Shown: piece after piece, positions 1 through 47,910 of the stretch
Numbering within the stretch: position 1 is the stretch's first letter
Layout: each line of letters starts with the position of its first letter
Source of the DNA: Actinosynnema sp. ALI-1.44
GTDB lineage: Bacteria; Actinomycetota; Actinomycetes; Mycobacteriales; Pseudonocardiaceae
Length of the DNA stretch: 64,000 nt
Reading direction: 5' to 3'
Assembly: GCF_001984155.1 (NCBI RefSeq)
Contig: NZ_MTQO01000036.1
Location: forward strand, 1 to 64,000
Translations under genes and position numbers: made by a program
Notes under the pieces: model-generated
Told to the model about the DNA's origin: nothing
The model's input: only the letters and a program-made list of their open reading frames with translations
The model's database searches: none

Positions 1-1
1 C

Positions 2-2977
2 CTCCACGGCCCCCTCAACACCACAGCCCTCCACAACGCCATCACCACCACCATCCAACGCCACGAAACACTCCGCACCACACTCCACCAACACCACCAG
101 ACCATCCACAGCGACGCCGAGTTCGCGCTCAGCCACATCGACCTGACCGACGAACCCGAGCAGGACCGCCGGTTGAGCGACCTGCTGAACCAGCAGGCAG
201 AGCTTCCGTTCGACCTGGCCGAAGGCCCGCTCTTCCGTGCTCTTCTGGTCCGGCTCGGCGACGATCACCACGCCCTGATCGTCAGCATGCACCACGCCAT
301 CTCCGACGGCTGGTCACTCGACATCCTCCTGCGGGAGATCAGCACACACTATCTCGGCACAACTGCCGCCCTGCCGCCGTTGCAGATCGGCTACGCCGAC
401 TTCGCCGCCTGGCAACGCGACCGTTTCGCCGATGGCTCGTTGGATCCACAGATCGCCTACTGGACAACGCAGCTGGCCGGTGCCGTCCCGCTGGAACTGC
501 CCACCGACTTCCCACGGCCACCGCGCCAGACTTTCAACGGTGCCGCCTGTCCGGTCCGCATCGGTGCTGATCTGGCCGGGCGTGTCGAGGACATCGCGCG
601 AGCCGAGGGCGTCACGGTGTTCATGGTGCTGCTTGCCGCGTACCAGGTGCTGCTCGCCCGAATGTCCGGCCAGGACGACATCGCGGTCGGCTCCCCGGTC
701 ACCGGACGGCAACACCCCGACGTGGCGAACCTCATTGGCTTCTTCGTCAACACACTGGTCCTCCGCACGGACCTGAGCGGCGATCCCACCTTTGCCGAGT
801 TGCTGCACCGAGTGCGGCGAACCTGTCTGGCAGGGTACGCCCACCAGGACGCGCCGTTCGAGAAGGTCGTCGAGCAACTGCAGCCGGACCGGGACCTCAG
901 CCGCAGCCCGCTGTTCCAGGCCATGCTCGTCCACCAGGACAACCCGCTCGGGACACTGGACATCGACGGCGTGGTGTCCAGTCCACTGTGGCCTGATCAG
1001 CGCACCAGCCAGTTCGACCTTACTCTCCGGCTCGAACCCACCGCGGACGGCCTCGGCGGCGAACTGGTCCACAACACGGATCTGTTCACCGCTGACACAG
1101 CCCAACGCTTCGCGGATCGGTTCCGCACGCTCCTGTCCGCCCTGACGAGCGCGCCTGACCAGCGCATTCATGACGTGCCCGTGATGCCGTCCGGTGAGGT
1201 CGAACTGCTTTCCGATTTGACGCCGGGTAAACAAACCCAGGTCTCGAGTCGGTTGTTGCACGAATGGTTCGAGGAGCAGGCCGACCGGACCCCGGACGCG
1301 ATCGCCGTCCGTGCCGCCGATGGAGAACTGACCTACCGGGAGCTCGACCAACGCGCCAACCAACTCGCCCACCACCTCCACACCGGACCAGAAGACCTCG
1401 TCGGCATCTGCCTCCCCCGCACCCTCGATCTCATCACCGCTTTGCTCGCCGTGCTCAAAACCGGCGCAGCCTACGTCCCCATAGACCCGGCGTACCCCAA
1501 GGACCGCATCACCTACATCCTCAACGACGCCAACGCCAACACACTTGTCACCAACGACGACCACGACGGCCCATGGCGCACAGTCCGAATCGACGAAGCT
1601 TCAGCAACCGCAACCAGGCTCACCACAACAGCGATCAGCAACAACCTGGCCTACGTGATCTACACATCCGGATCGACCGGACTGCCCAAAGGCGTCATGA
1701 TCGAACACCGCCACACGGCTGCCATGATCACCTGGGCAACCACCACATTCACCAAGGCCCAACTCACCAACGTCCTCGCGTCGACCTCCGTCTGCTTCGA
1801 CCTGTCGGTCTACGAGATCTTCGCCCCACTGGCCATCGGCGGCAGCATCACCCTCACCGAAAACAACGCCCTGGATCTGATCGTCACCGACCCCGGTGAC
1901 ATCACGTTGATCAACACCGTGCCCTCGGTCGCTCAGGAACTGCTGACCTCGGAAGCACTGCCGCGCACCGCCGCCACCATCAACCTGGCAGGGGAAGCAC
2001 TCAGCCCGGCACTCGTACGCGCCCTCTACGACCAGCCACACATCAAAGCGGTCAACAACCTCTACGGTCCCTCAGAGGACACCACCTACTCCACCCACGC
2101 ACTCACGACTTCCACCGACCAACGAACCCCCATAGGCAAACCCCTGCACAACACCCAGGCCTACGTCCTGGACGACAACCTTCACCCAGTACCCGTCGGC
2201 AGCATCGGCGAGCTGTACCTCGGCGGAGCCAGCATCACCCGCGGCTACCACCAACGACCAGCCCTCACCGCGGAACGCTACCTCCCCGACCCCCACAGGC
2301 CAGGGCAGCGCCTGTACCGGACTGGTGACGTGGTTCGCTGGCGCTCGGACGGCCAGCTCGACTACTTCGGCCGGACCGACCACCAGATCAAACACCACGG
2401 CCACCGCATCGAACCCGCCGAAATCGAAACCACCCTCCAAGAACACCCGGCCGTCACGGATGCCGCCATAGCACTGAAAAACGACATCCTGGTGGCCTAT
2501 GTCGTGGCGCCGGACGTCGACGAGGACCCCGCGCCTCTTCAAAGCCACCTCCGCACCACACTTCCCACGCACATGGTGCCGACCGTGTGGGTCTTCCTCG
2601 ACGCGCTGCCGCTCACCCCCAACCGCAAGATCGACCGCAAGGCGCTGCCGGAACCCACAGCCGCGCCGACGCAATACGAAGAACCCCGTACCGACGCCGA
2701 ACGACTCATCGCAGGTGTCTGGCAGGAGGTCCTGGAGAAGGACGAGATCGGCATCCGGGACAACTTCTTCACCCTCGGCGGGCACTCGCTGCTCGCCACC
2801 CGCATCACCAACAAACTCCAGACCCACCTGAACGCCACCATTCCGCTGCACCTGCTCTTCCAGCACCCCACCATCGCCGAACTGGCTGAGGCGCTGCCGG
2901 ACCTCGGCCACGGCACCACACAAGCCGCGACCATCCCGCGCCTGAGGCGCTCGCTGCGCGCGAAGGAGAGGACCTGA
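2..2977 (+). CDS. Non-ribosomal peptide synthetase, C-A-PCP module (5' partial)
   Basis: The frame is open from base 2, so the gene starts upstream of the window; the first 170 bases already read as condensation-domain sequence. The condensation domain carries an intact HHxxxDG motif (MHHAISDG, near base 290). The adenylation domain runs from about 1,255 to 2,640 with core motifs YTSGSTGLPKG, NLYGPSEDTTY, YRTGDVVR and NRKIDRK. The carrier domain has LGGHSLL with the phosphopantetheine serine near base 2,790. Aligned by hand to GrsA, the ten specificity residues read D-L-Y-N-N-A-L-T-Y-K, one change from the alanine code DLFNNALTYK; this is inference. No thioesterase or reductase follows, so the chain must pass to another protein. 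The stop lies 5 bases before the next start, so the flavin hydroxylase is probably co-transcribed. Confidence 0.93.
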   Translation, partial: LHGPLNTTALHNAITTTIQRHETLRTTLHQHHQTIHSDAEFALSHIDLTDEPEQDRRLSDLLNQQAELPFDLAEGPLFRALLVRLGDDHHALIVSMHHAISDGWSLDILLREISTHYLGTTAALPPLQIGYADFAAWQRDRFADGSLDPQIAYWTTQLAGAVPLELPTDFPRPPRQTFNGAACPVRIGADLAGRVEDIARAEGVTVFMVLLAAYQVLLARMSGQDDIAVGSPVTGRQHPDVANLIGFFVNTLVLRTDLSGDPTFAELLHRVRRTCLAGYAHQDAPFEKVVEQLQPDRDLSRSPLFQAMLVHQDNPLGTLDIDGVVSSPLWPDQRTSQFDLTLRLEPTADGLGGELVHNTDLFTADTAQRFADRFRTLLSALTSAPDQRIHDVPVMPSGEVELLSDLTPGKQTQVSSRLLHEWFEEQADRTPDAIAVRAADGELTYRELDQRANQLAHHLHTGPEDLVGICLPRTLDLITALLAVLKTGAAYVPIDPAYPKDRITYILNDANANTLVTNDDHDGPWRTVRIDEASATATRLTTTAISNNLAYVIYTSGSTGLPKGVMIEHRHTAAMITWATTTFTKAQLTNVLASTSVCFDLSVYEIFAPLAIGGSITLTENNALDLIVTDPGDITLINTVPSVAQELLTSEALPRTAATINLAGEALSPALVRALYDQPHIKAVNNLYGPSEDTTYSTHALTTSTDQRTPIGKPLHNTQAYVLDDNLHPVPVGSIGELYLGGASITRGYHQRPALTAERYLPDPHRPGQRLYRTGDVVRWRSDGQLDYFGRTDHQIKHHGHRIEPAEIETTLQEHPAVTDAAIALKNDILVAYVVAPDVDEDPAPLQSHLRTTLPTHMVPTVWVFLDALPLTPNRKIDRKALPEPTAAPTQYEEPRTDAERLIAGVWQEVLEKDEIGIRDNFFTLGGHSLLATRITNKLQTHLNATIPLHLLFQHPTIAELAEALPDLGHGTTQAATIPRLRRSLRAKERT

Positions 2978-2982
2978 AGGAC

Positions 2983-4449
2983 ATGGAGTCACGTGTTGTG
3001 ATCGTCGGAGCCGGTCCCACCGGCCTCGCGCTGGCCGCCGAGCTCGCCGGCGCGGGTATCCGGTGCACGGTGCTGGAGAAACGCACGCGACGGGCGATCC
3101 TGTCCAGGGCGTTCACCCTGGAACCCCGGACGCTGGAACTGCTCGACATGCGCGGCCGGGCCGGGCACTTCCTGGAACGCGGCCGCCTCTGCCCGAATCC
3201 GCCGCTCGGCGACAACAACGCGTACCTGGACTACTCCCTGTTGGACACGCCGTTCCCGTTCAGCCTGACCATTCCCCAGTACGAAACCGAAACCGTGCTG
3301 GAGAAGATCGCGCTCGACGCAGGCGCCACCGTGGTGCGCGGCGCCGAGGTGACCGCGCTGCGTCAGGACGAGAACGGTGTCGACGTCGACGTGCACAGCG
3401 ACATCGGCGATTCCGCGCAACGGGCGGACTTCGTCGTCGGGTGCGACGGTGTCAACAGCACCGTCCGCGCCGCCGCGGGCATCGAGTTCGACGGACGCAA
3501 CTACGAACAGTCCACGATCATGGCGGATGCGAAACTGCGCAACCCGCCCACGCCGCAGGAGTACGCCAGGATCACCAAGCGGGGCATGGTCGCGGTGTTC
3601 CCGTTCCGGGACGACGAGACGTACCGGATCATCGTCTTCGACCACGAGAAGATGATGCTGCCCGCCGACCTGCCGCTGACCCTGGACGACCTGAACGAGA
3701 GTTGCCAGGGGATACTGGACATCGACATCCAGCCGTACGACCCGGTGTGGATGTCCAGGTTCCGCAGTTCGCAGCGGCACGCCCAGTCCTACCGCTCGGG
3801 CCGCGTGCTGCTCGCCGGAGACGCCGCGCACACGCACATCCCGTCCGGTGGCCAGGGCCTGCAAACCGGCATCCAGGACGCGATGAACCTTGGCTGGAAG
3901 CTGCTCGCCGAGCTGACCGGCCGGGCGTCACCGGGGCTGTTGGACTCCTACGAGCAGGAGCGCTACCCGATCGCCGCCGAGACGCTGCGCAAGACCGATC
4001 TGTCATTCCGGTTCGAGACGTCGAACTCGATCGGCGCACGGCTCATCCGCAAGCTCGTCGTCAAGATGATGCGGTTCAAGTCGGTGCAGACAGCCAACCT
4101 CAAGCACCTGTCCGGGCTCACGTTGCGCTACCCGTCCGGCGACGACAGCAAGTGGGTGGGTATGCGAGTGCCGGACCGGCCGTTGGCCGACGGCCGAGGC
4201 CGGATCCACGAGCTGTTCCGCGACTACCGGTTCGCTTTGGTGTGGCGTGGCGGCGACGCTCCTGTGGCCCAGCCGGGCTGGGCGGACCGGGTGCGGATCG
4301 CGGAGGCGGAGCTCGATCGCGAGTGGCCCCGGCTGGTGCTGGTTCGTCCAGATGGGTACGTCGCGTGGGCCGGTGACACCGCTGACGGAAGCCTCCGGCG
4401 GGCGTTGTCGAAGTGGTGCGGCGAGCCGGTGTCGTCACACAGTTCCTGA
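2983..4449 (+). CDS. FAD-dependent aromatic hydroxylase (phenol hydroxylase class)
   Basis: A 488-residue class A flavoprotein monooxygenase. The N-terminal Rossmann motif is VVIVGAGPTGLALA, the middle DG motif is VVGCDGVNSTVR (NADPH/FAD contact), and the second FAD motif is LLAGDAAHTHIPSGGQG, followed by the thioredoxin-like C-terminal region (WRGGD ... LVRPDGYVAW) seen in PheA/RebC/MtmOII-type enzymes. Such enzymes hydroxylate phenols or quinones using NADPH and O2. It follows the NRPS by 5 bases and ends at a strong hairpin, so it belongs to the NRPS transcript and probably hydroxylates an aromatic residue of the peptide or its precursor. The exact substrate cannot be read from the sequence. 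Confidence 0.9.
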   Translation: MESRVVIVGAGPTGLALAAELAGAGIRCTVLEKRTRRAILSRAFTLEPRTLELLDMRGRAGHFLERGRLCPNPPLGDNNAYLDYSLLDTPFPFSLTIPQYETETVLEKIALDAGATVVRGAEVTALRQDENGVDVDVHSDIGDSAQRADFVVGCDGVNSTVRAAAGIEFDGRNYEQSTIMADAKLRNPPTPQEYARITKRGMVAVFPFRDDETYRIIVFDHEKMMLPADLPLTLDDLNESCQGILDIDIQPYDPVWMSRFRSSQRHAQSYRSGRVLLAGDAAHTHIPSGGQGLQTGIQDAMNLGWKLLAELTGRASPGLLDSYEQERYPIAAETLRKTDLSFRFETSNSIGARLIRKLVVKMMRFKSVQTANLKHLSGLTLRYPSGDDSKWVGMRVPDRPLADGRGRIHELFRDYRFALVWRGGDAPVAQPGWADRVRIAEAELDREWPRLVLVRPDGYVAWAGDTADGSLRRALSKWCGEPVSSHSS

Positions 4450-4462
4450 CCAGAGAAGAGAC

Positions 4463-4495
4463 GGGGCTCGTCCTTGCCGGACGAGCCCCCTTTTT
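4463..4495 (+). terminator. Rho-independent terminator between convergent genes
   Basis: A perfect 11-bp stem (4463-4473 with 4479-4489, GGGGCTCGTCC / GGACGAGCCCC) with a 5-base loop, followed by a T-run at 4491-4495. It closes the NRPS/hydroxylase transcript and directly abuts the stop codon of the convergent KASIII-like gene. Confidence 0.88.
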
Positions 4496-5517
4496 CAGAC
4501 TTCTACAAGAGTGCACGCCCAGTGCATGCCACGGCCCATCCCGGCCAGCGCGACCTTGTCCCCCGGGTTCAGGTCACCGGCGTGGCTCCGCAGGTTGAGC
4601 AGGTGGTCGGCAGCGCCGAAGTGCCCGTTCTCCATGGAGAACTCGACGTTCGTCTGTGCTGTGGTCATCCCGAACTTCTCGGCGACGGCGGTGAACGTCC
4701 GGAGGTTGTCGTTGAACAGGATCAGCTTCGCCAGGTCCGTCTTCTCGACGCCGACGCGCTTGCAAGCCTGCTGCACGACGGTGTGCACGCGCTCGTTCAT
4801 CAGGTCGATGAACTGCGAGAACCGGTCCGGGTCGTAGTCGAAGAACTCCATCATGTCCCACGCGTCCCGGACACGCGGTGCCTCGTCCTCGCCCAAGGCG
4901 GGTGGTGAGGCGTTGAACGGGTTCGCCGCGCCACCGCGGTCCATCCGGAAGAAGTCCGCGTACCGGCCGTCTGTGATCACCTCGGTCGCCAGCCACCGGT
5001 ACCGGTCGTGTCCCCGGGTGGCCACGGCCGCGGCGGCGCCGTCGGAGAACAGCAGCGAATGGGTGTCCATCCTGTTCCAGTAGGCCTCGCAGGTCCGGTT
5101 GGCGCCGATCAGCAACGCGGTGCGGTACTCCGGGTGCGTCGCGAACCGGCCCGCCAGCAGGTCGAAGCTGGTGATGCTGCCGATGCACCCCTGCGAAACG
5201 AGCACAGCCTCGGCCTTGTCGGCGCCGAGCCGGTGCTGCAGGTGGGCGGCCGCGTCCCAGTACATGTACTCCGCGATGTCCGTGGTGGCCAGTACCAACA
5301 GATCCACGTCCCCTGCGGCCATTCCGGCTTCACGCAGGGCCTCGGTCGCGGCGTCGTGCGCCAGGTCGGTCAGCCCCACCTCGGGCGCGCTCCGGTGAAT
5401 GGTCCGATAGCCGTAGTCGAGAACGCGTTCCGTGTCGTCGGTGTACTCGGACACCACGTCCTTCACGGGAGCCGGGTCGCCGAGCACAGATCCGAACGAG
5501 ACGATACCGAAGTCCAC
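4495..5517 (-). CDS. KASIII-like acyltransferase with altered catalytic triad
   Basis: A 340-residue thiolase-fold protein of ketoacyl-ACP synthase III type. The GTG start at 5517 is chosen because an AGGAGG sits just upstream, between it and the stop of the preceding gene; longer versions read into that gene. The nucleophilic cysteine is present (VSQGCIGSITS). The usual HQANxRI histidine motif is replaced by FNDNLRT, and the GN-asparagine position reads ENGHFGAAD, which puts a histidine there. A Cys plus late His is described for KASIII homologues that act as acyltransferases rather than condensing enzymes (CerJ/DpsC group). As last gene of the E1-alpha/ACP/E1-beta-E2 operon it probably moves the ACP-bound acyl unit onto the NRPS or its product; the acceptor is unknown. 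Confidence 0.82.
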   Translation of the reverse strand: MDFGIVSFGSVLGDPAPVKDVVSEYTDDTERVLDYGYRTIHRSAPEVGLTDLAHDAATEALREAGMAAGDVDLLVLATTDIAEYMYWDAAAHLQHRLGADKAEAVLVSQGCIGSITSFDLLAGRFATHPEYRTALLIGANRTCEAYWNRMDTHSLLFSDGAAAAVATRGHDRYRWLATEVITDGRYADFFRMDRGGAANPFNASPPALGEDEAPRVRDAWDMMEFFDYDPDRFSQFIDLMNERVHTVVQQACKRVGVEKTDLAKLILFNDNLRTFTAVAEKFGMTTAQTNVEFSMENGHFGAADHLLNLRSHAGDLNPGDKVALAGMGRGMHWACTLVEV

Positions 5518-5525
5518 ATTTCCTC

Positions 5526-7550
5526 CTAGTCGGACAGAAGACGGGACAGCGCTTCCTCGTCTTCCAGGAACGTCTTCACCTGCGTGAGGAACTGCACGGC
5601 GTCCCGGCCGTTGATCACCCGGTGGTCGTAGGAAAGCCCGATGTTGACGCACCGCCGCTGCACCACCGCGCCACCGTCATCGAGTCGGCATTCCGGGTAC
5701 ACCCCAGCCAACGAGACCATGCACACCTGCGGCGACAACACAATGGGCACGACGAGCAGGACGTCCGGGTCGGTGTTGATCGACAGGGTGATGTTCCCAC
5801 CGGCCAGCTCACGGGCCGCAAATTCGCCGCGGAACGCCTTCATCCGGAAGTCCATCAGCACGTCGGCGATGTCGCTCACCGAACGGTCACCCGCCGCCTC
5901 GACAACAGGAACGTACAACGCTTGGCCGGTGTCCAGGGTCACGCCGACGTTCGGCACCGAGGCGAGCGCGACTGTCTCATCGTCCGACAGCGAGCCGAAC
6001 ATCAGCGGGAAGTCCGGGTGCGCCGACGCGATCGCCTTCACGAGCAGGTCGACCAGGTCCACGGTCGCGCCGGTCTGGTCACTGAGCTCTTCCAGTCGCC
6101 GCAACGCCTCGCCGACCTCGGCCTTGACCACGGTGTAGGCCGCCGGGATCTCCCGATGGCTACGGGTGACCACAGCCGCTGTCCCACGTTGTGCCTTGTC
6201 CAACCGCCGCTGCTCAGGCCGCACATTGTCCCGTGGGGCGGGTTTCGGTGCTTCTTGCGGCTGCGCCGGGGAAGGCAGGAGATGGCCGAGCACCGCGCCG
6301 ACTTCCCGTTCCTCCCCGACCGGCACGACCTGGTGGAGGTAACCGGCTTCGGGGGCAAGGACCTCCTCGATGGCCTTCGAGGTCTCCAGTGCCACGACGG
6401 GATCCTGCGCCTCGACCCAGTCACCTTCGGCCCGCATCCATTCGACGAGCATGTAGGTGGTGTCGTTGTTGTTCAGCTTCGGCGTGGTGATCGGTGTCCC
6501 GTCGGCCGGTGGGTCGACAGGAGGTGCCCCCGGCGGTCCGGGGTCCACCGTGGTCACGTCGGCGATGGCCGCGCGGATGGTCGCGGCGTCGAGCAGGACC
6601 GACTGTTCGAGGTGCGTCGCGGTCGGGATGATCGAGTCGGCGGAGCTCAGCCGCAGCACCGGTTGCGTGAGGTCGGACCACATCCGGTCGTAGATCTGGG
6701 TGGCGACCTCGGCGCCCCACGTTCCCCCGGCCGTGCCCTCCTCCACGACGGCGATCCGGCCAGCGGCACGAAGTACGGGCAGCACCGGATCGAGGTCGAG
6801 GGGGTACAGCTGGCCGGGAACCAGGACCTCGGCGGCGATCGAGTGGTCCTTGCCCAGGCTCGCCGCGGCCTCCAGCGCCCGGTGGGCCACGCCGCCGGGA
6901 GCGATGATCACCACGTCGCCGGTGGTGGGACCGGTGACGTGCGCCCACCCCGGTGCGTCGCCGACCAGCTCGTACCCGAAGGTGTCGTCGACGCTGCCGT
7001 CCCGGAAGGCTCTGCGGGTGTACAGGACCTTGTCCTCGAACAGCACGCCGGGCACGCCCCGGTTGAGCGCGTGATCCAGCAGCTCCTCCGGGTTGTGGAA
7101 CGGCGACAGCTCGTACAGCACGAGGTTCGGGATCCCGACGAAGTGCTTTTGCAGGCTTTGGCTGTGTGTCGGCCCGTATCCGCGGTTGCCGCCGACCGGG
7201 CAACGCACGACCAGCGGCATGGGCACGCGACGGCCGTACATCGAGACGGACTTCGACGCGAAGTTCAGCACCTGGTCGAACCCCAGCGCGGCGAAGTCAC
7301 CGAACATGATCTCGGCGATGACCTTGTTGCCGCACAGGGCGAGTCCACCCGCGACGCCGATCAGCCCGCCTTCGCTCAGCGGGGTGGCCAGTACGCGGTC
7401 GGGGTACTCGGTCGACAGTCCTTTGGTGACCTTGAACGCACCGCCGTACGGGTCGAGCAGGTCCTCACCGAGCAGGTACAGCTGCTCGTCCCGGCTGAAC
7501 AGGGAGTGCAGTCCGTGGTTGAGGGTCTCCGCCACCCTCGGTGCGGTCAC
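5526..7550 (-). CDS. 2-oxo-acid dehydrogenase/transketolase-type E1-beta / lipoyl / E2 fusion
   Basis: A 674-residue single chain carrying three parts that are normally separate. Residues about 1-330 are an E1-beta subunit (GEDLLDPYGGAF, CPVGGNRGYGPTHSQ). About 355-430 is a lipoyl domain with the lipoylated lysine in ALETSKAIEEV. About 460-674 is an E2 acyltransferase core ending in the catalytic YDHRVINGRDA motif. No clear peripheral-subunit-binding domain is visible between lipoyl and E2 regions. The GTG start overlaps the ACP stop by 4 bases. With the E1-alpha gene it would make an acyl-dihydrolipoyl intermediate and pass the acyl group to the adjacent ACP. This matches the logic shown for NapB/NapD and QncN/QncL, which make glycolyl-ACP for naphthyridinomycin and quinocarcin. 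Acetyl or another acyl unit is equally possible. Confidence 0.88.
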   Translation of the reverse strand: MTAPRVAETLNHGLHSLFSRDEQLYLLGEDLLDPYGGAFKVTKGLSTEYPDRVLATPLSEGGLIGVAGGLALCGNKVIAEIMFGDFAALGFDQVLNFASKSVSMYGRRVPMPLVVRCPVGGNRGYGPTHSQSLQKHFVGIPNLVLYELSPFHNPEELLDHALNRGVPGVLFEDKVLYTRRAFRDGSVDDTFGYELVGDAPGWAHVTGPTTGDVVIIAPGGVAHRALEAAASLGKDHSIAAEVLVPGQLYPLDLDPVLPVLRAAGRIAVVEEGTAGGTWGAEVATQIYDRMWSDLTQPVLRLSSADSIIPTATHLEQSVLLDAATIRAAIADVTTVDPGPPGAPPVDPPADGTPITTPKLNNNDTTYMLVEWMRAEGDWVEAQDPVVALETSKAIEEVLAPEAGYLHQVVPVGEEREVGAVLGHLLPSPAQPQEAPKPAPRDNVRPEQRRLDKAQRGTAAVVTRSHREIPAAYTVVKAEVGEALRRLEELSDQTGATVDLVDLLVKAIASAHPDFPLMFGSLSDDETVALASVPNVGVTLDTGQALYVPVVEAAGDRSVSDIADVLMDFRMKAFRGEFAARELAGGNITLSINTDPDVLLVVPIVLSPQVCMVSLAGVYPECRLDDGGAVVQRRCVNIGLSYDHRVINGRDAVQFLTQVKTFLEDEEALSRLLSD

Positions 7551-7777
7551 GAGGTCACCCCCTTGGCTGCCAAAGCCTGCCGGAGCTCACCGACCGACCG
7601 GCAGGAGCGCGCTTCCCGTGGGCTGAGCCGGGTGCCGTAGGTCTTCTCCACCAGGGCGAGCAGTTGGACGTGTCGCAGACTGGTCCACGCGCTGGTGGTC
7701 GCGGCACCGGTCTGCTCGGTGACGTCCTCCGCCGCGATCCCGAGGACGTCGGCGACGAGCGACTCGACGGACGTCAT
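7547..7777 (-). CDS. Free-standing acyl carrier protein
   Basis: A 76-residue protein with the four-helix ACP pattern. The phosphopantetheine-bearing serine is most likely the Ser in TSAWTSLRHVQLLALVE, in place of the usual DSL. The ATG overlaps the stop of the E1-alpha gene (ATGA), and the stop overlaps the GTG of the E1-beta/E2 fusion (GTGA), so its level is tied to both. Its position between the two halves of the dehydrogenase makes it the obvious acceptor of the acyl unit built by that complex. The attachment loop is divergent (WTSL), so it may be recognised by a dedicated transferase. Confidence 0.8.
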   Translation of the reverse strand: MTSVESLVADVLGIAAEDVTEQTGAATTSAWTSLRHVQLLALVEKTYGTRLSPREARSCRSVGELRQALAAKGVTS

Positions 7778-8733
7778 CGGACCGCCTCCGCAGGCCGATC
7801 CGCCCAGTCCGACGGCGGCCTGGCTTCGACTTCCTCCACAACACGGGAGACTCGTGCCCGCTGCCGGGCGTCGACGGTCGCGAACCGCTCCCCGAACCGG
7901 GCGGCGTACTCGGTGTACCAGTCGCGGGCACGGACCCAGCGCAGTTCCTCCTCGCACCGGGTGTCGTCGCCCTTGCTGTGCGGCCCCACCCGCACGGTGT
8001 CGAACTCGACCACCGCGGGTCGGCAGGCCGTGCGCACCTCGTCCACGACGGGCTTGAGCCGGTGCCGGATCGCGCCGATGTCGGTGCTGTCCACCTCGAG
8101 GTGGGTGACGCCGAACGCGTGTGCCCGGCCCGCGATCGTGCCCGCCATCTGCATACCGGTGGGCGTGGACTGGGCGATTCCGTTGTGCTCCACGACAACC
8201 AGCAGTGGCAGGTGCCAGAGGCTCGCCATGTTCAGCGCCTCGTACACCGCGCCCTCTCCCCAGGTGCCGTCGCCGATGAACGCGACGGAGGCGCGGTTCT
8301 GCCGGGACCGCTGGAAGTGCAGCGCCACACCGGTCGCGGCGGGCATGCTCTGGCCCTGCACGCCGGTGGACAGGTAACCGTCCCGGTAGATGTGCTGGCT
8401 GCCACCGACCCCCGCGCACACCGCGCCCTGGCGTCCCATGATCTCGGCCAGCAGCCCGGCCGGGTCGTCGAACCGGGCGAGGTAGTGACCGTGGCCGCGG
8501 TGGTTGCTGAAAACGAAGTCGTCGCGAAGCAACGGCGCCAAAGCGACCGGGATGTATTCCTGCCCCAGGCAGGTGTGCGTGGTACCGTTGAGTTTTCCGG
8601 CACCGAACAATTCGAGCAGTGCCAGCTCGAAATTGCGGATCAGCAGCAGCGATTCCAGATCGTCGTCGGCTACCGTGAAATTCGATGGGCCAACCTGCTC
8701 CAGGTCGACCGACGGTCGGTGGACAACGGTCAC
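7774..8733 (-). CDS. Thiamine-diphosphate-dependent E1-alpha subunit
   Basis: A 319-residue protein of the pyruvate/branched-chain/acetoin dehydrogenase E1-alpha family. The ThDP/Mg motif is GDGTWGEGAVYEALNMAS followed by VVVEHN; the pocket segments NHRGHGHYLA and GVGGSQHIY are also present. The GTG start at 8733 has a GGGAGG five bases upstream. It is the first gene of the minus-strand operon E1-alpha / ACP / E1-beta-E2 / KASIII, with every junction overlapping or a few bases wide. With the E1-beta half of the fusion it should decarboxylate a 2-keto acid, or cleave a ketose as in the naphthyridinomycin transketolases, and acylate the lipoyl arm. Donor identity is open. Confidence 0.87.
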   Translation of the reverse strand: MTVVHRPSVDLEQVGPSNFTVADDDLESLLLIRNFELALLELFGAGKLNGTTHTCLGQEYIPVALAPLLRDDFVFSNHRGHGHYLARFDDPAGLLAEIMGRQGAVCAGVGGSQHIYRDGYLSTGVQGQSMPAATGVALHFQRSRQNRASVAFIGDGTWGEGAVYEALNMASLWHLPLLVVVEHNGIAQSTPTGMQMAGTIAGRAHAFGVTHLEVDSTDIGAIRHRLKPVVDEVRTACRPAVVEFDTVRVGPHSKGDDTRCEEELRWVRARDWYTEYAARFGERFATVDARQRARVSRVVEEVEARPPSDWADRPAEAVR

Positions 8734-8981
8734 CTGCGCCTCCCATATGCGTCCTACCTGTGACGACGACGCTATCGGCGGCGGCTCTCATGCCGGTCTC
8801 GAATCCTCCTACGCGCCACTATCACCTTCCTCTTACCGGCGCGATCGAGCCGGAAACCGCCGTCACCAGACGCTACGCTGACCATGCTTGCCTTCCAGTG
8901 ACTCGACCCGATGACTCGACACTGAATTCGGCATCCGAAGGCGTCCTGAACCACTCACAGCAACGGGAATCGGCGGGTTGT
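8734..8981. promoter_or_regulatory. Divergent promoter region between the acyl-unit operon and the pabAB operon
   Basis: A 248-bp spacer between two divergent operons of the cluster (GTG at 8733 on minus, ATG at 8982 on plus). It is less GC-rich than its surroundings and contains no convincing gene. It must hold promoters for both operons. I see no strong palindrome and do not assign -35/-10 boxes. Confidence 0.5.
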
Positions 8982-11114
8982 ATGCGTACTTTGCTTATCG
9001 ACAACCACGACTCCTACACGTACAACCTCTTCCAGCTGATGGCGAGCGTGTACCGCACGGAGCCCACAGTGCTGGCCAACGACGACCCGAGCTGGCCGCG
9101 GATGGACCTCGACGAGTTCGACGCACTCGTGATCTCCCCCGGCCCCGGGCACCCCCGCAGGCGCCGGGACCTCGGCGCCTGTCTGGACATCCTGCGCCGG
9201 ACCAGCCTGCCGGTGCTGGGCGTGTGCCTGGGCCACCAGGCGATCGCGTGGATGTGCGGTGCTGAGGTGGCCGTCGCGCCCCGCCCCCGGCACGGACACC
9301 TGACCAGGGTGACCCACAACGGCCGTCAGCTGTTCGCCGGGGTGCCCCAGGAGTTCACCGCGGTGCGGTACCACTCGCTGTGCGTCCGGTCCCAGCAGCT
9401 TCCCGCCGAACTGGAGGCGACGGCGTGGGCGGAGGACGGCGTGGTGATGGGCTTGCGGCATCTGTCCCGCCCGTTGTGGGGTGTTCAGTTCCACCCCGAG
9501 TCCGTGGCGACCGACCACGGCGCGACGCTGCTGGACAACTTCCGCCGCCTCGCCGAGAAGACAGCGGCCCGCAACGGCAGCCCTTTCGGCCGCGTCCCCC
9601 AGGCGACGGCAACGCCTCGGCCCCCTCGCGCACCGGACTGCGAGCAGCCCGGTCCGTGGCGGGTCCTGCACCGCGTGGTGGACCGGGAAGCCGACGCCGA
9701 GGCCACGTTCCGCGAGCTGTTCAGCCACTCCCGTCACGCGTTCTGGTTGGACAGCAGTCAGGTGGAGGCCGGCCTGTCCCGGTTTTCCTTCCTCGGCGCG
9801 CCGTTGGGGCCCGACGGTGAGGTGCTTTCCTACGACGTCGAACGTTCCGTGCTCACCGTGCTCCCGGCTCTCGGGCCTGCCCGGCAGGTCCGGGAGTCGG
9901 TCTTCGACGTGCTGGACGCCCGGTTGCGGGAGCGCGGCACACCCACGCCAGCCCTGCCGTTCGGGCTGAACTGCGGTTATGTCGGCTACTTCGGGTACGA
10001 GCTCAAGGCCGAACTCGGTTTCCCGAACCGGCATGCCGCCGCCACACCCGACGCGGTGTGGGTGTCCGCGACGAGGATGGTCGCCGTCGACCACGCCGAA
10101 GGGCGTACCTATCTGCTCGCCCTCGCGCGGGACGGCAACGTCGCGCAAGCCACGGCGTGGCTGGACGAGACGGAGACACGGCTCGCTCTCAGCGGCAACG
10201 GGTCCGGTGGTCCGGCCGCGCACACCACCGCCGACATCGACCCCGAGCCGTGGCTGCGGCGCCCCCGGCCTGGTTATCTCGCCGACGTCACCGACTGCCA
10301 GCACGAACTGCACGCCGGTGAGAGCTACGAGATCTGCCACACCACGACCGCGACCATGCCGTTCGCCGGGGACCCGCTGGAGCGCTACCTGCGCCAGCGC
10401 CGTGCCAACCCCGCGCCCTACGCGGCGTACCTGCGGCTCGGTGACGCCTACGTGCTGTGCTCGTCCCCGGAACGGTTCCTCAGGGTGGACAAGGACCACG
10501 TCGTGCAGAGCAAGCCGATCAAGGGGACGGCACCGCGCCACCCCGATCCGGCACAGGACGAGCGCCTGCGCGAGGAACTGGCCCGCAGCGCCAAGGCCCG
10601 TGCCGAGAACCTGATGATCGTCGACCTGCTCCGCAACGACCTCGGCCGGGTGTGCGAGGTGGGCACGATCAGCGTCCCCCGGTTCATGGTGGTGGAGAGC
10701 TACGCGACAGTGCACCAGCTCGTATCCACAGTGGAGGGACGGCTGCGACCGGGCATCACCGCCATCGACTGCGTCCGGGCCTGTTTCCCCGGTGGCTCGA
10801 TGACCGGGGCGCCCAAACAGCGCACCGTGGAGATCATCGACCGACTGGAGAACGGCCCGAGGGGGATCTACTCGGGCACGCTCGGCTGGTTCGGTCTCGA
10901 CGGCACCGCGGACCTCAACATCGTCATCCGCACGGCGGTGATCACCGGCGGAGAGCTGACCGTCGGCGCGGGCGGGGCGATCGTGCTCGACTCCGACCCC
11001 GTCGACGAGTACGAGGAAATGCTGCTCAAGGCGCGTGCTCCCCTGCGTGGACACACCGGCGGCCGTGCCGCGCCGCCCAGCGCGTTGCTGCCGTCCGCGA
11101 CCAACCCGGCCTGA
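8982..11114 (+). CDS. pabAB: Fused 4-amino-4-deoxychorismate synthase (PabA-PabB)
   Basis: A 710-residue bifunctional enzyme. Residues about 1-190 form a class I glutamine amidotransferase (ISPGPGHP, catalytic Cys in GVCLGHQAIA, and HPE in VQFHPES). The rest is a chorismate-binding aminase component with PIKGTAPR, ENLMIVDLLRNDLG and FPGGSMTGAPK. The lysine in PIKGT, where anthranilate synthases have PIAGT, and the amidotransferase-first order point to aminodeoxychorismate rather than anthranilate or ADIC synthase. Fusions of this kind feed p-aminobenzoate or p-aminophenylalanine starters in candicidin- and chloramphenicol-type clusters. No PabC lyase or PapBC pair lies in the window, so the route after ADC must use genes elsewhere or outside the left edge. 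The ATG at 8982 begins the conserved MRTLLIDNHDSYTYN start. Confidence 0.92.
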   Translation: MRTLLIDNHDSYTYNLFQLMASVYRTEPTVLANDDPSWPRMDLDEFDALVISPGPGHPRRRRDLGACLDILRRTSLPVLGVCLGHQAIAWMCGAEVAVAPRPRHGHLTRVTHNGRQLFAGVPQEFTAVRYHSLCVRSQQLPAELEATAWAEDGVVMGLRHLSRPLWGVQFHPESVATDHGATLLDNFRRLAEKTAARNGSPFGRVPQATATPRPPRAPDCEQPGPWRVLHRVVDREADAEATFRELFSHSRHAFWLDSSQVEAGLSRFSFLGAPLGPDGEVLSYDVERSVLTVLPALGPARQVRESVFDVLDARLRERGTPTPALPFGLNCGYVGYFGYELKAELGFPNRHAAATPDAVWVSATRMVAVDHAEGRTYLLALARDGNVAQATAWLDETETRLALSGNGSGGPAAHTTADIDPEPWLRRPRPGYLADVTDCQHELHAGESYEICHTTTATMPFAGDPLERYLRQRRANPAPYAAYLRLGDAYVLCSSPERFLRVDKDHVVQSKPIKGTAPRHPDPAQDERLREELARSAKARAENLMIVDLLRNDLGRVCEVGTISVPRFMVVESYATVHQLVSTVEGRLRPGITAIDCVRACFPGGSMTGAPKQRTVEIIDRLENGPRGIYSGTLGWFGLDGTADLNIVIRTAVITGGELTVGAGGAIVLDSDPVDEYEEMLLKARAPLRGHTGGRAAPPSALLPSATNPA

Positions 11115-11167
11115 CCCCCGACGAGCCCCTGACGAGCCCCTTGACGAGCACTGGCGTGGAGGATGCC

Positions 11168-12637
11168 ATGACACGCACCGGATCCGAGTACATCGAGTCT
11201 CTTCGCGACGGTCGCGAAGTCTGGTACGACGGCGAACGCGTCAAAGACATCACCGTCCACCCGGCCTTCCACAACACGATCCGCTCGATCGCCGGGCTCT
11301 ACGACCGCACGCACGAGCCTGACCTGCGTGACGTGCTGACCGTGCGCGCCCCCGACGGCGGCCGGGTGCTGCGCGCCTACCAGGTTCCCATGACCCGCAT
11401 GGACCTTGTGGCCAAACGGGTGGCGTTCAAGGCGTGGGCCGAGGCGAGCTTCGGTTTCCTCGGCCGGTCACCGGACTACATGGCGACCGCGATCTCCGGG
11501 TTCGCCGCCGCGCCGCACGTCTTCACCGGCGCGACGTTCGACGGCGCGCCGAACGTCCTCGACTTCCACGCCCGGATGGCCCGCAACGACCTGTTCGAGG
11601 CCCACACCCTGGTCAACCCCCAGATCGACCGGACGAAAACGCCGTCCCAACAGGAAGAGGACGATCTCTACCTGCGTGTGGTGCGGGAACGCGACGACGG
11701 GATCGTGGTGCGGGGCGCGAAGATGGTCGGCACCGGCGCGGTGTTCGGCGACGAGATCCTGGTGGGCACCACCCAGCGGCTGGCTCCGGCCGACGCCGAC
11801 TACGCGTTGTCGTTCTCGGTCCCCGTGTCCTCACCCGGCGTGAAGTTCGTCTCCCGGGCGTCCTATGAGGACAAGGCCAGGAGCGTGTTCGACTACCCGC
11901 TCGCCTCGCGTTTCGACGAGAACGACGCCTTGGTCGTCTACGACAACGTCTTCGTCCCGTGGGAGAACGTCCTGGTCTACCGGGACGTGGACGTCTGCAA
12001 CTCGCAGTGGTGGAAGACGCCCGCGTTCGTCAACTTCGTGCACCACGGGGCGACCCGGCTGTGGACGAAGTTCGAGTTCCTCACCGGGATCGCGTTGCTG
12101 ATCGCCAAGGCCAACAACACGGCCAAGCTGCCACCCGTCCAGGCCCAGATCGGCAAACTGATGGGCTGGCTCAACACGATGCGCTCGATGGTGCTGGCGC
12201 TGGAGGCCGCGTGCGAAACGGTGGACGGGCCGGGCGGGCCGGTGCAGCCGAACAAGGAGATCAGCTGCGCTCAGCTGGCCGTCGGGCCGGAGCTGTACCC
12301 CCAGGTGCTCAACGAGATCAAGCTGCTCGCGGGCGGCGGTTTGATCCAGCTGCCCGCGTCCTTCCAGGACCTGCTGAATCCGGAAACCGTGCCGCTGCTG
12401 CGCAAGTACATCCGCTCACCCGGCTGTCCCACCGAGGAACGCGTCAAGCTGTTCAAACTCGCCTGGGACGCGCTGGGTAGCGAGTTCGCCGGGCGGCACG
12501 AGCACTACGAGCGCTTTTACCACGGCGCGCCACACGTGTACCTGAGCGCGATCGTCCGCGAAGGCGACACCGACGCGTACGAACGACTCGCCCAAACCTG
12601 CCTCGACGGCTACGAGTTGCACGAGGAGGCGCCGTGA
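11168..12637 (+). CDS. HpaB-family FADH2-dependent aromatic hydroxylase
   Basis: A 489-residue member of the 4-hydroxyphenylacetate 3-monooxygenase large-subunit family, at the usual family length and without an attached reductase domain. Recognisable segments are GRSPDYMATAISGF, DRTKTPSQQE and FVPWENVLVYRDVD. The ATG has a GGAGG 6 bases upstream. These two-component enzymes use FADH2 from a separate flavin reductase to ortho-hydroxylate phenols; relatives act on tyrosyl-carrier intermediates (SgcC) or free aromatics. No reductase gene is visible, so a general cellular flavin reductase must serve. Its place after pabAB suggests a 4-amino- or 4-hydroxy-aryl substrate. The stop overlaps the next start by 4 bases. 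Confidence 0.9.
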   Translation: MTRTGSEYIESLRDGREVWYDGERVKDITVHPAFHNTIRSIAGLYDRTHEPDLRDVLTVRAPDGGRVLRAYQVPMTRMDLVAKRVAFKAWAEASFGFLGRSPDYMATAISGFAAAPHVFTGATFDGAPNVLDFHARMARNDLFEAHTLVNPQIDRTKTPSQQEEDDLYLRVVRERDDGIVVRGAKMVGTGAVFGDEILVGTTQRLAPADADYALSFSVPVSSPGVKFVSRASYEDKARSVFDYPLASRFDENDALVVYDNVFVPWENVLVYRDVDVCNSQWWKTPAFVNFVHHGATRLWTKFEFLTGIALLIAKANNTAKLPPVQAQIGKLMGWLNTMRSMVLALEAACETVDGPGGPVQPNKEISCAQLAVGPELYPQVLNEIKLLAGGGLIQLPASFQDLLNPETVPLLRKYIRSPGCPTEERVKLFKLAWDALGSEFAGRHEHYERFYHGAPHVYLSAIVREGDTDAYERLAQTCLDGYELHEEAP

Positions 12638-13176
12638 CCACTATCGCCGGGAGGACCCCACGGATCGCGAGGCGCACCATCGTCCTTTCGGTCAACTGGT
12701 TGGCGTCGTTCTCGCTCGTCCAGGCCGTCGCCGTCGCGTGGGTGCTGTCACAGCAACGCACCGTCGTGTTCGACGGCCGTGCCAGCGGGCACACGCACCA
12801 CGGAGCGGGCGGTACGCACTACGCGCCGCCGATCAGCCTCGAACGGGCGCCATATCTGGCCGGAATCACGTTCCTCACGGCGCACATCCTGTTCGTGCTG
12901 CTGGCCGCGAGCGCGTACGTTCTGCGCAAGACCCTGGTGCGGATCGGCAAGCAGGTTCCGTCCCTGCCGGTTCACCTCGCTTTCGCAGGCCTGGCAACCG
13001 TTGTCACGACCGTCGCGACTCCCGTGGTGGCGTGGATCAGCCTGGGTGAACAGCCGTCGGCGACGGTCGTCGCCGAGGCCGTCGACGCCGCCAGGGCCGC
13101 GTTCGTGATCTCCGTACTGTTCATCGCCCTGTTCGGCATGCCATGGCCACGACGCCCCGACCGGCCTGCCGACTGA
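12634..13176 (+). CDS. Small integral membrane protein with His-rich extracytoplasmic loop
   Basis: A 180-residue protein I cannot assign to a family. About four hydrophobic segments are visible (residues ~18-38, 75-93, 112-133, 152-170). Between the first two lies a His-rich loop, GHTHHGAGGTHY, a possible metal (copper?) site. The GTG start overlaps the HpaB stop by 4 bases, and the gene ends 21 bases before the multicopper oxidase. Being placed between a hydroxylase and an exported copper oxidase suggests a role in copper supply to, or membrane anchoring of, the oxidase. That role is inference from context. Confidence 0.72.
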   Translation: MTTIAGRTPRIARRTIVLSVNWLASFSLVQAVAVAWVLSQQRTVVFDGRASGHTHHGAGGTHYAPPISLERAPYLAGITFLTAHILFVLLAASAYVLRKTLVRIGKQVPSLPVHLAFAGLATVVTTVATPVVAWISLGEQPSATVVAEAVDAARAAFVISVLFIALFGMPWPRRPDRPAD

Positions 13177-13196: not shown

Positions 13197-14636
13197 ATGC
13201 TCAAACGGCGGGAATTCGTGAAACTGCTCGGTGCGGGCGGCGCCGCCCTCGCGCTCACCAGCGAATGCGGTGTGGGGTCCAGAGCGGCGGCCATCCCGTC
13301 CCTGCCGCCGTTCTCGACGCCGCTGCACATCCCACCGGTGGCACGCCCGGAGCGCACCGACGGCACGACCGACTTCTACCGGGTCAAGATGGCCGAGACC
13401 CAGGCCGAGATCTTCCCCGGCCTGCAGACCAAGGTGCTCACCTACAACGGGGAGTTCCCGGCCGCCACCATCCGCGCCCAGCGCGGCAGGAAGGTCGCCA
13501 TCACCCAGCAGAACCAGACCAAGCAGCCCACGGCGGTGCACCTGCACGGCGCCCATCTGCCCAGGAAGGACGACGGGCACCCGATGGACGTGATCGAGCC
13601 GGGCGGACAGCGCGACTACCTGTATCCCAACACCCAACTCGGCGCGACCCTCTGGTACCACGACCACGCCCACCACACCGAGGCCGAACACGTCTACCGC
13701 GGCCTGGCAGGCATGTACATCCTGGAGGACGAGCAGGAGAAGGCCCTCGGCCTGCCGGAGGGCGAGTTCGACGTTCCGCTGCTGTTGCGCGACTCGCAGT
13801 TCGACGCGGCCGGTCAGCTCGTCTGGATGCTCGCCGGGTTCGCGGGCCGGACGACGCTGCTGGTCAACGGCAGCCCGCAGCCGTACTTCGAGGTGGCCGC
13901 GCGCAAGTACCGGTTCCGTTTCCTCAACTGCGCCAACGACCGCAGCTACACCCTGCGGCTCGGCGACGGCAAAGGCGTCCCGATGCACCTGATCGGCTCG
14001 GACGGCGGCCTGCTGCCCGCACCGGTCACGGTCACCAGCTTCGACATCACCCCCGGTGAACGCGTCGAGGCGGTCATCGACTTCTCCCAGTTCCCCATCG
14101 GCACCCAACTGACGCTCACCAACGACATCGGCGAGGTCGAGGACGTGAAGCCGGTGATGCGGTTCGACGTCCTGCGCACCGCACCGGACACCAGCCGGGT
14201 CCCCGCCACTCTGCGGCCGCGCGCCGACCTCGGCGAGGCCACGGTCGAGCGCGACATCGAGATGCACGTGGAACTGACGCCCAACCCCGCCGACATCAAG
14301 AGCACGCTCGACCGGAAGCTGTACGACCCCAACCGGATCGACCAGCGCGGCAAGCTCGGCACCACCGAGATGTGGACGATCCGCAACACCGACACCGAAC
14401 TCGGCATCCCGCACAACATGCATCTGCACCTGGAACAGTTCCACATCATCGACCGCAACGGCAAACCCGTCGGCGGCCACGAGACCGGGCTTAAGGACAC
14501 GGTGGTCATCCCGCCTGGCGGCAACGTCCGGATCAAGGTGCGGTTCACCGAGCACGCGGGCACGTTCGTGTACCACTGCCACATGCTGGACCACTCCGCG
14601 CTGGGAATGATGGGACAGCTGGAACTCACCACGTGA
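13197..14636 (+). CDS. Tat-exported multicopper oxidase
   Basis: A 479-residue three-cupredoxin oxidase of the CotA / bilirubin oxidase / phenoxazinone synthase type. It starts with a twin-arginine signal (KRREFVKLLGAGGAALAL) ending near a Cys (LTSECG), so it may be a lipoprotein. Four copper motifs are intact: HLHGAH, WYHDHAHH, HNMHLHLEQFH and the C-terminal YHCHMLDHSALGMMG with the type 1 Cys, His and axial Met. Such enzymes take single electrons from aminophenols or phenols and reduce O2 to water. In this operon, after an aminochorismate synthase and a hydroxylase, oxidation of an aminophenol to a quinone-imine, or a radical coupling outside the membrane, is likely. Confidence 0.92.
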   Translation: MLKRREFVKLLGAGGAALALTSECGVGSRAAAIPSLPPFSTPLHIPPVARPERTDGTTDFYRVKMAETQAEIFPGLQTKVLTYNGEFPAATIRAQRGRKVAITQQNQTKQPTAVHLHGAHLPRKDDGHPMDVIEPGGQRDYLYPNTQLGATLWYHDHAHHTEAEHVYRGLAGMYILEDEQEKALGLPEGEFDVPLLLRDSQFDAAGQLVWMLAGFAGRTTLLVNGSPQPYFEVAARKYRFRFLNCANDRSYTLRLGDGKGVPMHLIGSDGGLLPAPVTVTSFDITPGERVEAVIDFSQFPIGTQLTLTNDIGEVEDVKPVMRFDVLRTAPDTSRVPATLRPRADLGEATVERDIEMHVELTPNPADIKSTLDRKLYDPNRIDQRGKLGTTEMWTIRNTDTELGIPHNMHLHLEQFHIIDRNGKPVGGHETGLKDTVVIPPGGNVRIKVRFTEHAGTFVYHCHMLDHSALGMMGQLELTT

Positions 14637-14660
14637 CGAGACCACCGGGGAGTGGTGCGG

Positions 14661-19979: not shown

Positions 19980-20004
19980 CACCGGGAAAGAAAGGAGCGC
20001 CACC

Positions 20005-44088: not shown

Positions 44089-44209
44089 AAGACCCAAGTT
44101 CATACTTATGGTGTTTAGACATGACAGGAATTCAGGGGCATCCTTGCAGGTCAGCGGTAGTATTGATCACGTCTGATGGTCGGTCTGCTGATCTGTGGGG
44201 GATGCAGAA

Positions 44210-45996: not shown

Positions 45997-46208
45997 ACGT
46001 AACGGGCCGGGGTGAGCTGCTGCCAGTGCTCCGTGCCTTCCTTCTCCACGGTGCGATTGATCGTCACACCGTCCGACGTGGACAAGCCCAGACCGGCCCA
46101 CGGCGCGGCGAGCGCGGTGACCAGGTCGACGGGCTCCTGGGTGCCGGGCGGGCCGAGTGACACCTCGCCGACGCCCGCGACACGGACCAGCGCTGAGTTG
46201 AGCGCCAT
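45474..46208 (-). CDS. Truncated phage major tail (tube) protein
   Basis: The ATG at 46208 has AGGAGG upstream. The first ~120 residues are a phage tail-tube protein (DGVTINRTVEKEGTEHWQQ, the FGG segment, YRAEISTIP). After ERA, near 45,840, the frame continues only as antisense of the recombinase gene, to a stop at 45474. The authentic C-terminal part is therefore missing. It is the last gene of the head-to-tail series coming from the portal at 52,550; nothing of the remaining tail, lysis or replication genes is present. Function is almost certainly lost. Confidence 0.7.
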   Translation of the reverse strand: MALNSALVRVAGVGEVSLGPPGTQEPVDLVTALAAPWAGLGLSTSDGVTINRTVEKEGTEHWQQLTPARYVYTGQSLTVASVFQETKAAVLSAYFGGMKFVETTQGSKKYRAEISTIPRSDERAVCRSTARNWVMVNSASTCRAWGPITSWRIGATAVARSQCRCALPTRSNRPGSIALKLSNDTSPAPAAVRHFSNSARAATSSRSALDASAACSCNRNNRAASGRSNSCTACSISHASSRSC

Positions 46209-46231
46209 GAATACGAAACCTCCTGTGTGGA

Positions 46232-46953: not shown

Positions 46954-46958
46954 GACGG

Positions 46959-47671: not shown

Positions 47672-47910
47672 CCGAACACCCCACATCTGTCGGCCGTTAC
47701 AATTCTGGCGCGATTTAGAGACGCACGTCGGTTGGCGCTGAGGTGAGTCTCTGAACCCCACCACCTCAACCGGGGGAAGCAACCCGGTTGGCGCCCGGCG
47801 ACGCCAAAAGCCCTCTACGAGGGCTGCTGCTTACGACAACTGAATAGCCAGACACAACATCCACATCAACCGACGAGGCCGGGACCGTCGGCGATGAATG
47901 GCGGTTGTGA
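47672..47910. other. Non-coding spacer inside the phage remnant
   Basis: About 240 bp between the connector gene (minus) and a short plus-strand ORF. It contains an imperfect hairpin near 47,765-47,795 and no gene I can support. Confidence 0.4.

Follow-up and report, generated by a model that had tools for sequence, protein, structure and literature searches.

A very probable dnacin/naphthyridinomycin-type tetrahydroisoquinoline gene cluster, split over three contigs, in Actinosynnema sp. ALI-1.44

Gene content at the left end of the window

The DNA analysed here (the window) is a 64,000-nucleotide stretch of Actinosynnema sp. ALI-1.44 (contig NZ_MTQO01000036.1, called C32 below), and our subject is the group of biosynthetic genes at its left end, which very probably belongs to a tetrahydroisoquinoline (THIQ) cluster of the dnacin/naphthyridinomycin type. 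Base 1 of the window is base 1 of the contig, so there is no sequence to its left on C32. The first gene (2–2977, + strand) is the 3' end of a nonribosomal peptide synthetase (NRPS) resembling DinO/NapO and 50 per cent identical to DinO. In it, Pfam recognizes a condensation (C) domain at 2–1210 (319 bits; cut at its 5' side by the contig end, with profile positions 1–34 missing), an adenylation (A) domain at 1268–2629 (246 bits), and a peptidyl carrier protein (PCP) domain at 2705–2896 (58 bits), and the gene closes with a stop codon. The ten-residue code of the A domain, with the core-motif positions placed where we take them to be, is DLYNNALTYK, in agreement with an earlier reading of the window made from its letters alone (the sequence-only reading). 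A FAD monooxygenase gene that this reading had not mentioned (2983–4449, +; Pfam; DinX/NapA ortholog by reciprocal best match, 64–66 per cent) separates the NRPS from the convergent operon that follows.

That operon (4495–8733, − strand) carries a full loading cassette of the NapB/NapD/NapC type together with a KASIII-like gene. Its members are the KASIII homolog (4495–5517; 48 and 32 bits to two Pfam KASIII domains), orthologous to DinQ/NapE; an E1-beta/lipoyl/E2 fusion (5526–7550; Pfam Transket_pyr, Transketolase_C, lipoyl, and 2-oxoacid_dh; E2 motif DHRxxNG), orthologous to DinS/NapD; a DinT/NapC-like free acyl carrier protein (ACP; 7547–7777; motif WTSL; Pfam 28 bits, cut-off 20.8); and an E1-alpha protein (7774–8733; Pfam E1_dh, 151 bits; thiamine diphosphate [ThDP] motif GDG...N), orthologous to DinU/NapB. 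As had been proposed, they form a single minus-strand set, in which the fusion and ACP genes and the ACP and E1-alpha genes overlap by 4 nt each, and 8 nt separate the KASIII gene from the fusion, given the start that we chose. Divergent from the operon are a fused aminodeoxychorismate (ADC) synthase in glutaminase-PabB order (8982–11114, +; DinV ortholog by Pfam, NCBIfam, and comparison with the din proteins), an HpaB-type flavin hydroxylase (11168–12637, +; Pfam; DinW ortholog), and the later plus-strand genes.

Correspondence to the dnacin cluster and probable location of the missing half

The literature drawn on consists of excerpts from PMC7570522, PMC8648761, PMC9570651, PMC11375781, PMC8949500, and PMC9268379, a review that treats quinocarcin/SF-1739. 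For the dnacin B1 cluster (din) of Actinosynnema pretiosum, Table 1 of PMC7570522 lists DinE–DinO, DinQ, and DinS–DinX, with Nap counterparts for many of them. The open reading frames (ORFs) in an 80-kb stretch of genome G059 have lengths exactly equal to those of 18 entries in that table (DinR1, ORF4, DinR2, DinC, DinD, DinR3, DinF, DinH, DinN, DinO, DinR4, DinQ, DinS, DinT, DinU, DinR7, DinR8, and DinY; PMC7570522); other ORFs of the stretch differ in length, as the caller takes the first start (DinE 104 versus 103, DinR6 632 versus 613) or merges frames. We regard it as the dnacin cluster itself or as something very closely related. Orthologs of DinE, F, H, I, J, L, N, O, Q, S, U, V, X, R3, R6, and R7 were found in our organism as reciprocal best matches, and those of DinT and DinW by tblastn in the dnacin stretch (L036; 59 and 66 per cent). 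DinP has a reciprocal match at 33 per cent, and two weaker reciprocal pairs (29 per cent; 39 per cent over 114 aa) were left uncounted.

Many of these orthologs lie outside the window. A search of the same genome with window positions 1–3000 returned relatives at C46:592007–594082 and C2:548–3424 (81 per cent each), and DLYNNALTYK was read in the A domains on C32, C2, and C46 alike. Contig C46 ends at 594138, 56 bases past the last aligned base and just beyond a PCP domain; C2 (3569 bp) begins inside an A domain and finishes at the start of a C domain; and C32 begins inside a C domain. An exact copy of the first 99 bases of C32 is present at C2:548–646, as expected if the assembly broke at a repeat. 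Toward its end, C46 (535001–594138) encodes PapB-like, PapC-like, and methyltransferase-like proteins, an A-domain protein, a TauD-family oxygenase, a C-A-PCP-reductase, MbtH, C-A-PCP, thioesterase II, AL-PCP, and a further C-A-PCP. An AL-PCP loader and Ala-coded C-A-PCP modules are thus present, scattered over C46, C2, and C32.

Two domains that the sequence-only reading had named as things to look for are among these proteins. The C-A-PCP-reductase, 65 per cent identical to DinJ over 1478 aa, ends in a reductase domain with GATGYLG and YPRTK motifs, and its C domain lacks HHxxxDG, as does that of the dnacin protein; the pair would fit aldehyde release followed by Pictet-Spengler closure. A DinL-like module (49 per cent to DinL over 549 aa) has an A domain without the A3, A5, A7/8, and A10 motifs and a C domain that keeps HHxxxDG. 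The counterpart of DinI, the dehydroarginine oxygenase, is 58 per cent identical, and that of DinH, the stand-alone aromatic A protein, 44–48 per cent.

The three contig ends in one repeated module region, together with the gene linkage of the dnacin type, indicate one cluster over C46, C2, and C32. With high confidence from gene content and synteny, we read window positions 2–12637 as the right half of a dnacin/naphthyridinomycin-type THIQ cluster whose left half would be the end of C46, with the Ala module or modules of C2 between them. The earlier suggestion of a THIQ-like product is thereby supported. Because end-to-end overlap is lacking among C46, C2, and C32 (0 for each pair, at least 12 nt being asked for), the order C46-C2-C32 is one that we infer. 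The same lack would be expected of two separate clusters, one on C32 and one at the end of C46, with the cassette in the window serving another NRPS. This alternative is very unlikely, since each of the three ends lies within one repeated module region, the start of C32 recurs in C2, and both the dnacin stretch and U. tangerina have DinN, DinO, and the cassette in one place. Moreover, the orthologous cluster of Actinocrispum wychmicini DSM 45934 (NZ_SLWS01000021.1), which has the same gene order, is broken inside the same NRPS gene, and there the last 77 bases of one contig (C7) equal the first 77 of the other (C21).

The pieces would need at least three Ala modules. The first and last 527 bases of C2 are identical, and for this reason we rejected that contig as proof of at least four. 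It probably represents a tandem NRPS module that was collapsed or unrolled.

At the left of the cluster on C46 (L060:6013–11015) is a group of genes for a PF04199 cyclase-family protein, a FAD monooxygenase, and a class-V aminotransferase/kynureninase-like protein, which are kept in A. wychmicini.

Beyond the orthologs, the likeness to din extends to MbtH and thioesterase II, the PapA/B/C route to p-aminophenylalanine, and the Ala modules. Gene order differs, the Ala code of dnacin is DLFNNALTYK rather than DLYNNALTYK, and the cluster here lacks a close DinC or DinR8 and a clustered DinA, whereas it adds a NapW-like short-chain dehydrogenase/reductase (SDR), a multicopper oxidase, and a six-gene operon. 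For naphthyridinomycin (nap, Streptomyces lusitanus; as excerpted from PMC7570522 and PMC8648761), counterparts of NapB/C/D/E, J, L, H, I, N, and O were assigned through the din proteins, NapW being the only nap protein compared directly. The aromatic unit of nap is tyrosine, whereas here it would be p-aminophenylalanine, and a close NapG-like peptidase and a clustered NapU-like oxidase are missing here. Judged by its genes, the core is of the naphthyridinomycin/dnacin class and of the p-aminophenylalanine type like dnacin, and the accessory genes make it a new variant. Quinocarcin (qnc) reportedly follows the same glycolyl-loading logic, a likeness taken from description and not from protein comparison.

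The loading cassette and its KASIII-like partner

Enzymes of this type use ThDP to make glycolyl-ACP from a ketose phosphate. The E1-alpha protein (DinU/NapB) would accordingly take a two-carbon unit from the sugar, and the fusion (DinS/NapD) would hand it through its lipoyl domain to the free ACP. Loading of a two-carbon unit from a ketose is what has been reported for DinU/T/S/Q (NapB/C/D/E; PMC7570522). The nearest NCBIfam models for the cassette are pyruvate dehydrogenase E1-alpha, E1-beta, and E2, which would suit a cassette that is fed by pyruvate or a branched 2-oxo acid and loads acetyl or some other acyl group, with a product bearing acetyl or a short acyl group. All of those matches are below the family cut-offs, however, the enzymes are orthologous to DinU/DinS and so to NapB/NapD, and the other matches of the fusion in its own genome reach only 25–33 per cent identity; acetyl or short-acyl loading is therefore improbable. 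Branched-chain loading in particular had been entertained and was dropped once the enzymes proved to be NapB/NapD orthologs. A literature search returned nothing linking glycolyl-ACP with pyruvate dehydrogenase and nonribosomal synthesis.

The E2 active-site motif, which usually has the form HRxxDG, is HRxxNG in all 24 DinS-type rows (20 distinct loci); the scan required DHR, so that other forms would escape it, and three chance frames were dropped.

The KASIII homolog is 56 per cent identical to DinQ (reciprocal best match) and belongs to the same operon as the cassette. In an alignment with 2ebd it keeps Cys111, but the position of FabH His244 is F268 and that of FabH Asn274 is H299. Across 23 rows (22 of 26 named loci plus the window), C111, H299, and D304 are invariant, and position 268 is never His. 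Because the Cys is kept while the FabH His and Asn are replaced, we consider it more likely that the protein moves glycolyl from the ACP to a PCP than that it makes a C–C bond. The probable acceptor is the PCP of the DinL-like module: its A domain lacks the core motifs, and the PCP would therefore need an acyl source other than its own A domain.

The other possibility is that the KASIII homolog forms a C–C or ester bond by condensation or itself charges the ACP. The dnacin authors propose acyl loading onto the ACP DinT (PMC7570522). A His occupies position 269, beside the FabH His position, in six of the 23 rows, including that of A. wychmicini. The predicted model has a normal KASIII fold (pLDDT 87), and a fold search scores FabH, DpsC, NatS, and ChlB3 alike, so that condensing enzymes are among the neighbours and the search does not separate them from transferases. 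The KASIII-type acyltransferases ChlB3 and CerJ share the fold and overall likeness with the window protein, but only ~21–22 per cent identity. Set against these points are the residue pattern, with no His at the FabH His244 position in any row and a His in every row at that of Asn274; the E2 domain, which should already acylate the ACP; and the DinL-like module with its dead A domain, which would need a charged PCP. We regard condensation or ACP loading as a real possibility, albeit the less favoured one, and retain transfer to the DinL-like PCP as the working assignment. A tetronate-type role, in which glycolyl-ACP is joined to a beta-ketoacyl partner, was dropped when synteny matched the locus to dnacin.

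Aromatic unit and proposed pathway

The sequence-only reading had looked to a tyrosine-type module. An aromatic A protein is indeed present, but the aromatic unit is probably p-aminophenylalanine rather than tyrosine, because homologs of PapA/B/C are all found: the ADC synthase in the window (60 per cent to DinV) and, on C46, PapB (56 per cent to DinE) and PapC (47 per cent to DinF). For dnacin, the p-aminophenylalanine route of dinV, dinE, and dinF was confirmed in E. coli (PMC7570522). A role for the chorismate enzyme in 2-amino-2-deoxyisochorismate (ADIC)/anthranilate chemistry was rejected, given that its glutaminase comes first, that pabB (TIGR00553) scores above cut-off, and that PapB and PapC are on C46; the anthranilate-synthase NCBIfam models shown for it are below their cut-offs. 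For the HpaB homolog, we propose 3-hydroxylation of the aminophenylalanine ring.

A pathway can be proposed on this basis. In naphthyridinomycin, an acyl-Ala leader is reportedly built by Ala modules; by analogy, the AL-PCP protein and the Ala modules here would build an N-acyl-Ala leader, which would be joined to the DinL-like PCP bearing the glycolyl unit delivered by the KASIII homolog. The DinJ-like reductase domain would then free an aldehyde, and the C domain without HHxxxDG would close the THIQ ring with 3-hydroxy-p-aminophenylalanine supplied by the PapA/B/C and HpaB homologs. A dehydroarginine unit may be added by a Mannich-type step. The NapW-like SDR would hold the product reduced within the cell, and the multicopper oxidase may carry out the oxidation outside it that NapU/DinA handle elsewhere.

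Distribution of the cassette

Among 249 genomes of the family, 25 have a relative of the KASIII homolog scoring above 200 bits. In 7 of the 25, including our own, the NapE-type KASIII adjoins E1-alpha, ACP, and fusion genes, and all 7 also have a DinJ/NapJ-type protein, which in the 6 others is 61–83 per cent identical to ours. In the remaining 18, the best DinJ-type match listed is at most 44 per cent in 16 genomes, and the matches in two (G006 and G165) are weaker than those listed. The pairing of cassette and DinJ-type protein has apparent exceptions, and the cassette alone is not diagnostic of a THIQ cluster. Three loci (L071, L072, and L077) have every part of the cassette but, in view, no NapJ-type protein at the 61 per cent level, and genome G142, which has most of the cassette (E1-alpha and E1-beta/E2 homologs within 5 kb of a 46 per cent KASIII), shows none at that level either. 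For the loci, which span 18–21 kb, absence means absence from the stretch in view.

These counterexamples weigh against the THIQ assignment, as do the missing contig overlaps and the identical ends of C2. The KASIII type further occurs without the cassette, for instance at L068 and L069 of Streptomyces sp. CBMA156, where the KASIII is 60–63 per cent identical to that of the window and the fetched 20–21 kb show no E1/ACP/E2 genes. DinA, DinC, DinD, DinR8, and DinY were unmatched in the stretches compared. Matches to the DinC/NapG peptidase reach at most 34 bits in our genome, A. wychmicini, and G192; the best match to the UvrA-like DinR8 is 43 per cent here versus 77 per cent in G032; and DinA/NapU-like oxidases reach at best 49 per cent in our genome, with none inside the fetched cluster stretches.

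We treat the peptidase as accessory: it is missing in G192 and remote in two other genomes with a homolog (37–38 per cent, far from the cassette, in G060 and G223), and it is 49 per cent identical in G032. A Peptidase_S9-type protein on C46 (L060:11440–13140; 62 per cent in A. wychmicini) is a candidate replacement for DinC. The NapU/DinA secreted flavin oxidase is likewise treated as accessory; copies of 59–65 per cent occur in G032, G060, G223, and G192, and the best match in A. wychmicini is 50 per cent.

In a phylogeny of 23 KASIII sequences, which does not include DinQ itself, the window and A. wychmicini proteins pair (support 100/99) and fall outside a clade that unites 11 further cassette-linked rows (100/99), among them the dnacin-like Saccharothrix deserti; the fork joining pair and clade has a support of 83/82. 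Within the genus, 2 of 8 genomes have the cassette fusion type (at least 74 per cent).

Clusters of the p-aminophenylalanine type are few among the loci seen. Homologs of both DinV and DinW occur in 2 of the 26 named loci, A. wychmicini (L067) and S. deserti (L082), several loci being cut by contig ends; with the dnacin stretch and the window, this makes four such clusters, two of them from this genus. Natural products of the THIQ type act as DNA alkylators, and ET-743, a clinical drug, is one of them (PMC9570651). The variant described here combines a multicopper oxidase with a conserved enzyme cassette and has neither an obvious leader peptidase nor a clustered NapU; it offers a test of how the class matures its prodrug and of whether the class can take on a second ring system.

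Accessory genes and the linked six-gene operon

The NapW-like SDR on C46 scores 378 bits against 7bsx/7btm, which are depositions of NapW-NADP and NapW. Self-protection by such an SDR is a feature of naphthyridinomycin that is absent from the dnacin listing. Within the window, the hydroxylase gene is followed by a gene for a small protein, membrane-like by eye (12634–13176, +), which is also present in A. wychmicini (52 per cent) and for which Pfam and NCBIfam gave no match at E 0.001, and then by the multicopper oxidase gene (13197–14636, +). The oxidase has a Tat-like RRxFxK N terminus and four HxH copper motifs. Its best NCBIfam model, CueO, is below cut-off, as is the O-aminophenol oxidase PhsA (NF045554; 205.7 of 950 bits), and among solved structures it comes closest to bilirubin oxidases and other multicopper oxidases. 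The gene stands beside HpaB in two of the four p-aminophenylalanine-type clusters, here and in A. wychmicini, which belong to one genus; in S. deserti, an ABC-transporter-looking frame (by eye) takes its place. Relatives away from the cassette are 62 per cent (G060) and 50 per cent (G192) identical. NapU is described as Tat-secreted and as oxidizing the prodrug (PMC11375781). Our guess is that the multicopper oxidase stands in for it, perhaps by way of the o-aminophenol character of a 3-hydroxy-4-amino ring.

A six-gene operon (14652–22169, +) begins 15 bp after the oxidase gene and encodes an asparagine-synthase-like amidotransferase (AsnB; 14652–16499), a PrpF-like isomerase (16496–17542), an acyl-CoA-dehydrogenase-like protein (17539–18636), a dihydroorotase/allantoinase-like cyclic amidohydrolase (18624–19979), an O-methyltransferase (20005–21039), and a FAD monooxygenase (21036–22169). 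In A. wychmicini, all six genes recur in unchanged order (72–77 per cent) ~2 kb past the block shared with C46, on the opposite side of the cluster. Linkage kept on opposite sides suggests a shared pathway. The rival view, that the operon and the oxidase are chance neighbours with other functions, comes somewhat short of an even chance in our estimate. The first four genes (14652–19979) also occur as a core on their own in other actinobacteria, with a second copy in our own genome; linkage to the cluster is seen in two genomes of one genus alone; and the oxidase is nearest to bilirubin oxidase and other multicopper oxidases, with PhsA far below cut-off. Against mere adjacency stands the change of side, since the operon starts directly after the oxidase here and near the C46-shared block there.

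PrpF scores above 260 bits at 14 loci, from 12 of the 249 genomes, and at 11 of these the four core genes are contiguous; the literature searched contained no description of such an AsnB-PrpF-acyl-CoA-dehydrogenase-dihydroorotase cassette. From the enzyme types alone, we would guess that the operon makes a cyclic amide or imide. If the operon and the oxidase do serve the THIQ pathway, both clusters of the genus might make a hybrid in which a p-aminophenylalanine THIQ core carries a second heterocycle and a secreted multicopper oxidase replaces NapU; we hold this to be speculative and rather unlikely. The second ring could be, for example, a cyclic imide or amide formed by the AsnB, PrpF, acyl-CoA-dehydrogenase-like, and dihydroorotase-like proteins and then hydroxylated and O-methylated, and the oxidase would turn the o-aminophenol ring of the exported compound into a quinone form.

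Copies of the core were also seen on linear plasmids of Streptomyces goshikiensis, S. zaomyceticus, and NBC_01383 (L115–L117) and, within the family, at L103:8339–14804. In all three Streptomyces plasmid regions inspected (42 records matched), dioxygenase, citrate-lyase-like, and cysteine-synthase-like genes lie within 10 kb of the core. Beside another copy (L110:4277–5934), ORFs resembling a pseudouridine-glycosidase-type protein and a HAD phosphatase by eye hint at a C-nucleoside context. Farther to the right in the window, at about 44200–52550, recombinase-like and phage-structural-looking ORFs (also labelled by eye) lie mostly on the minus strand.

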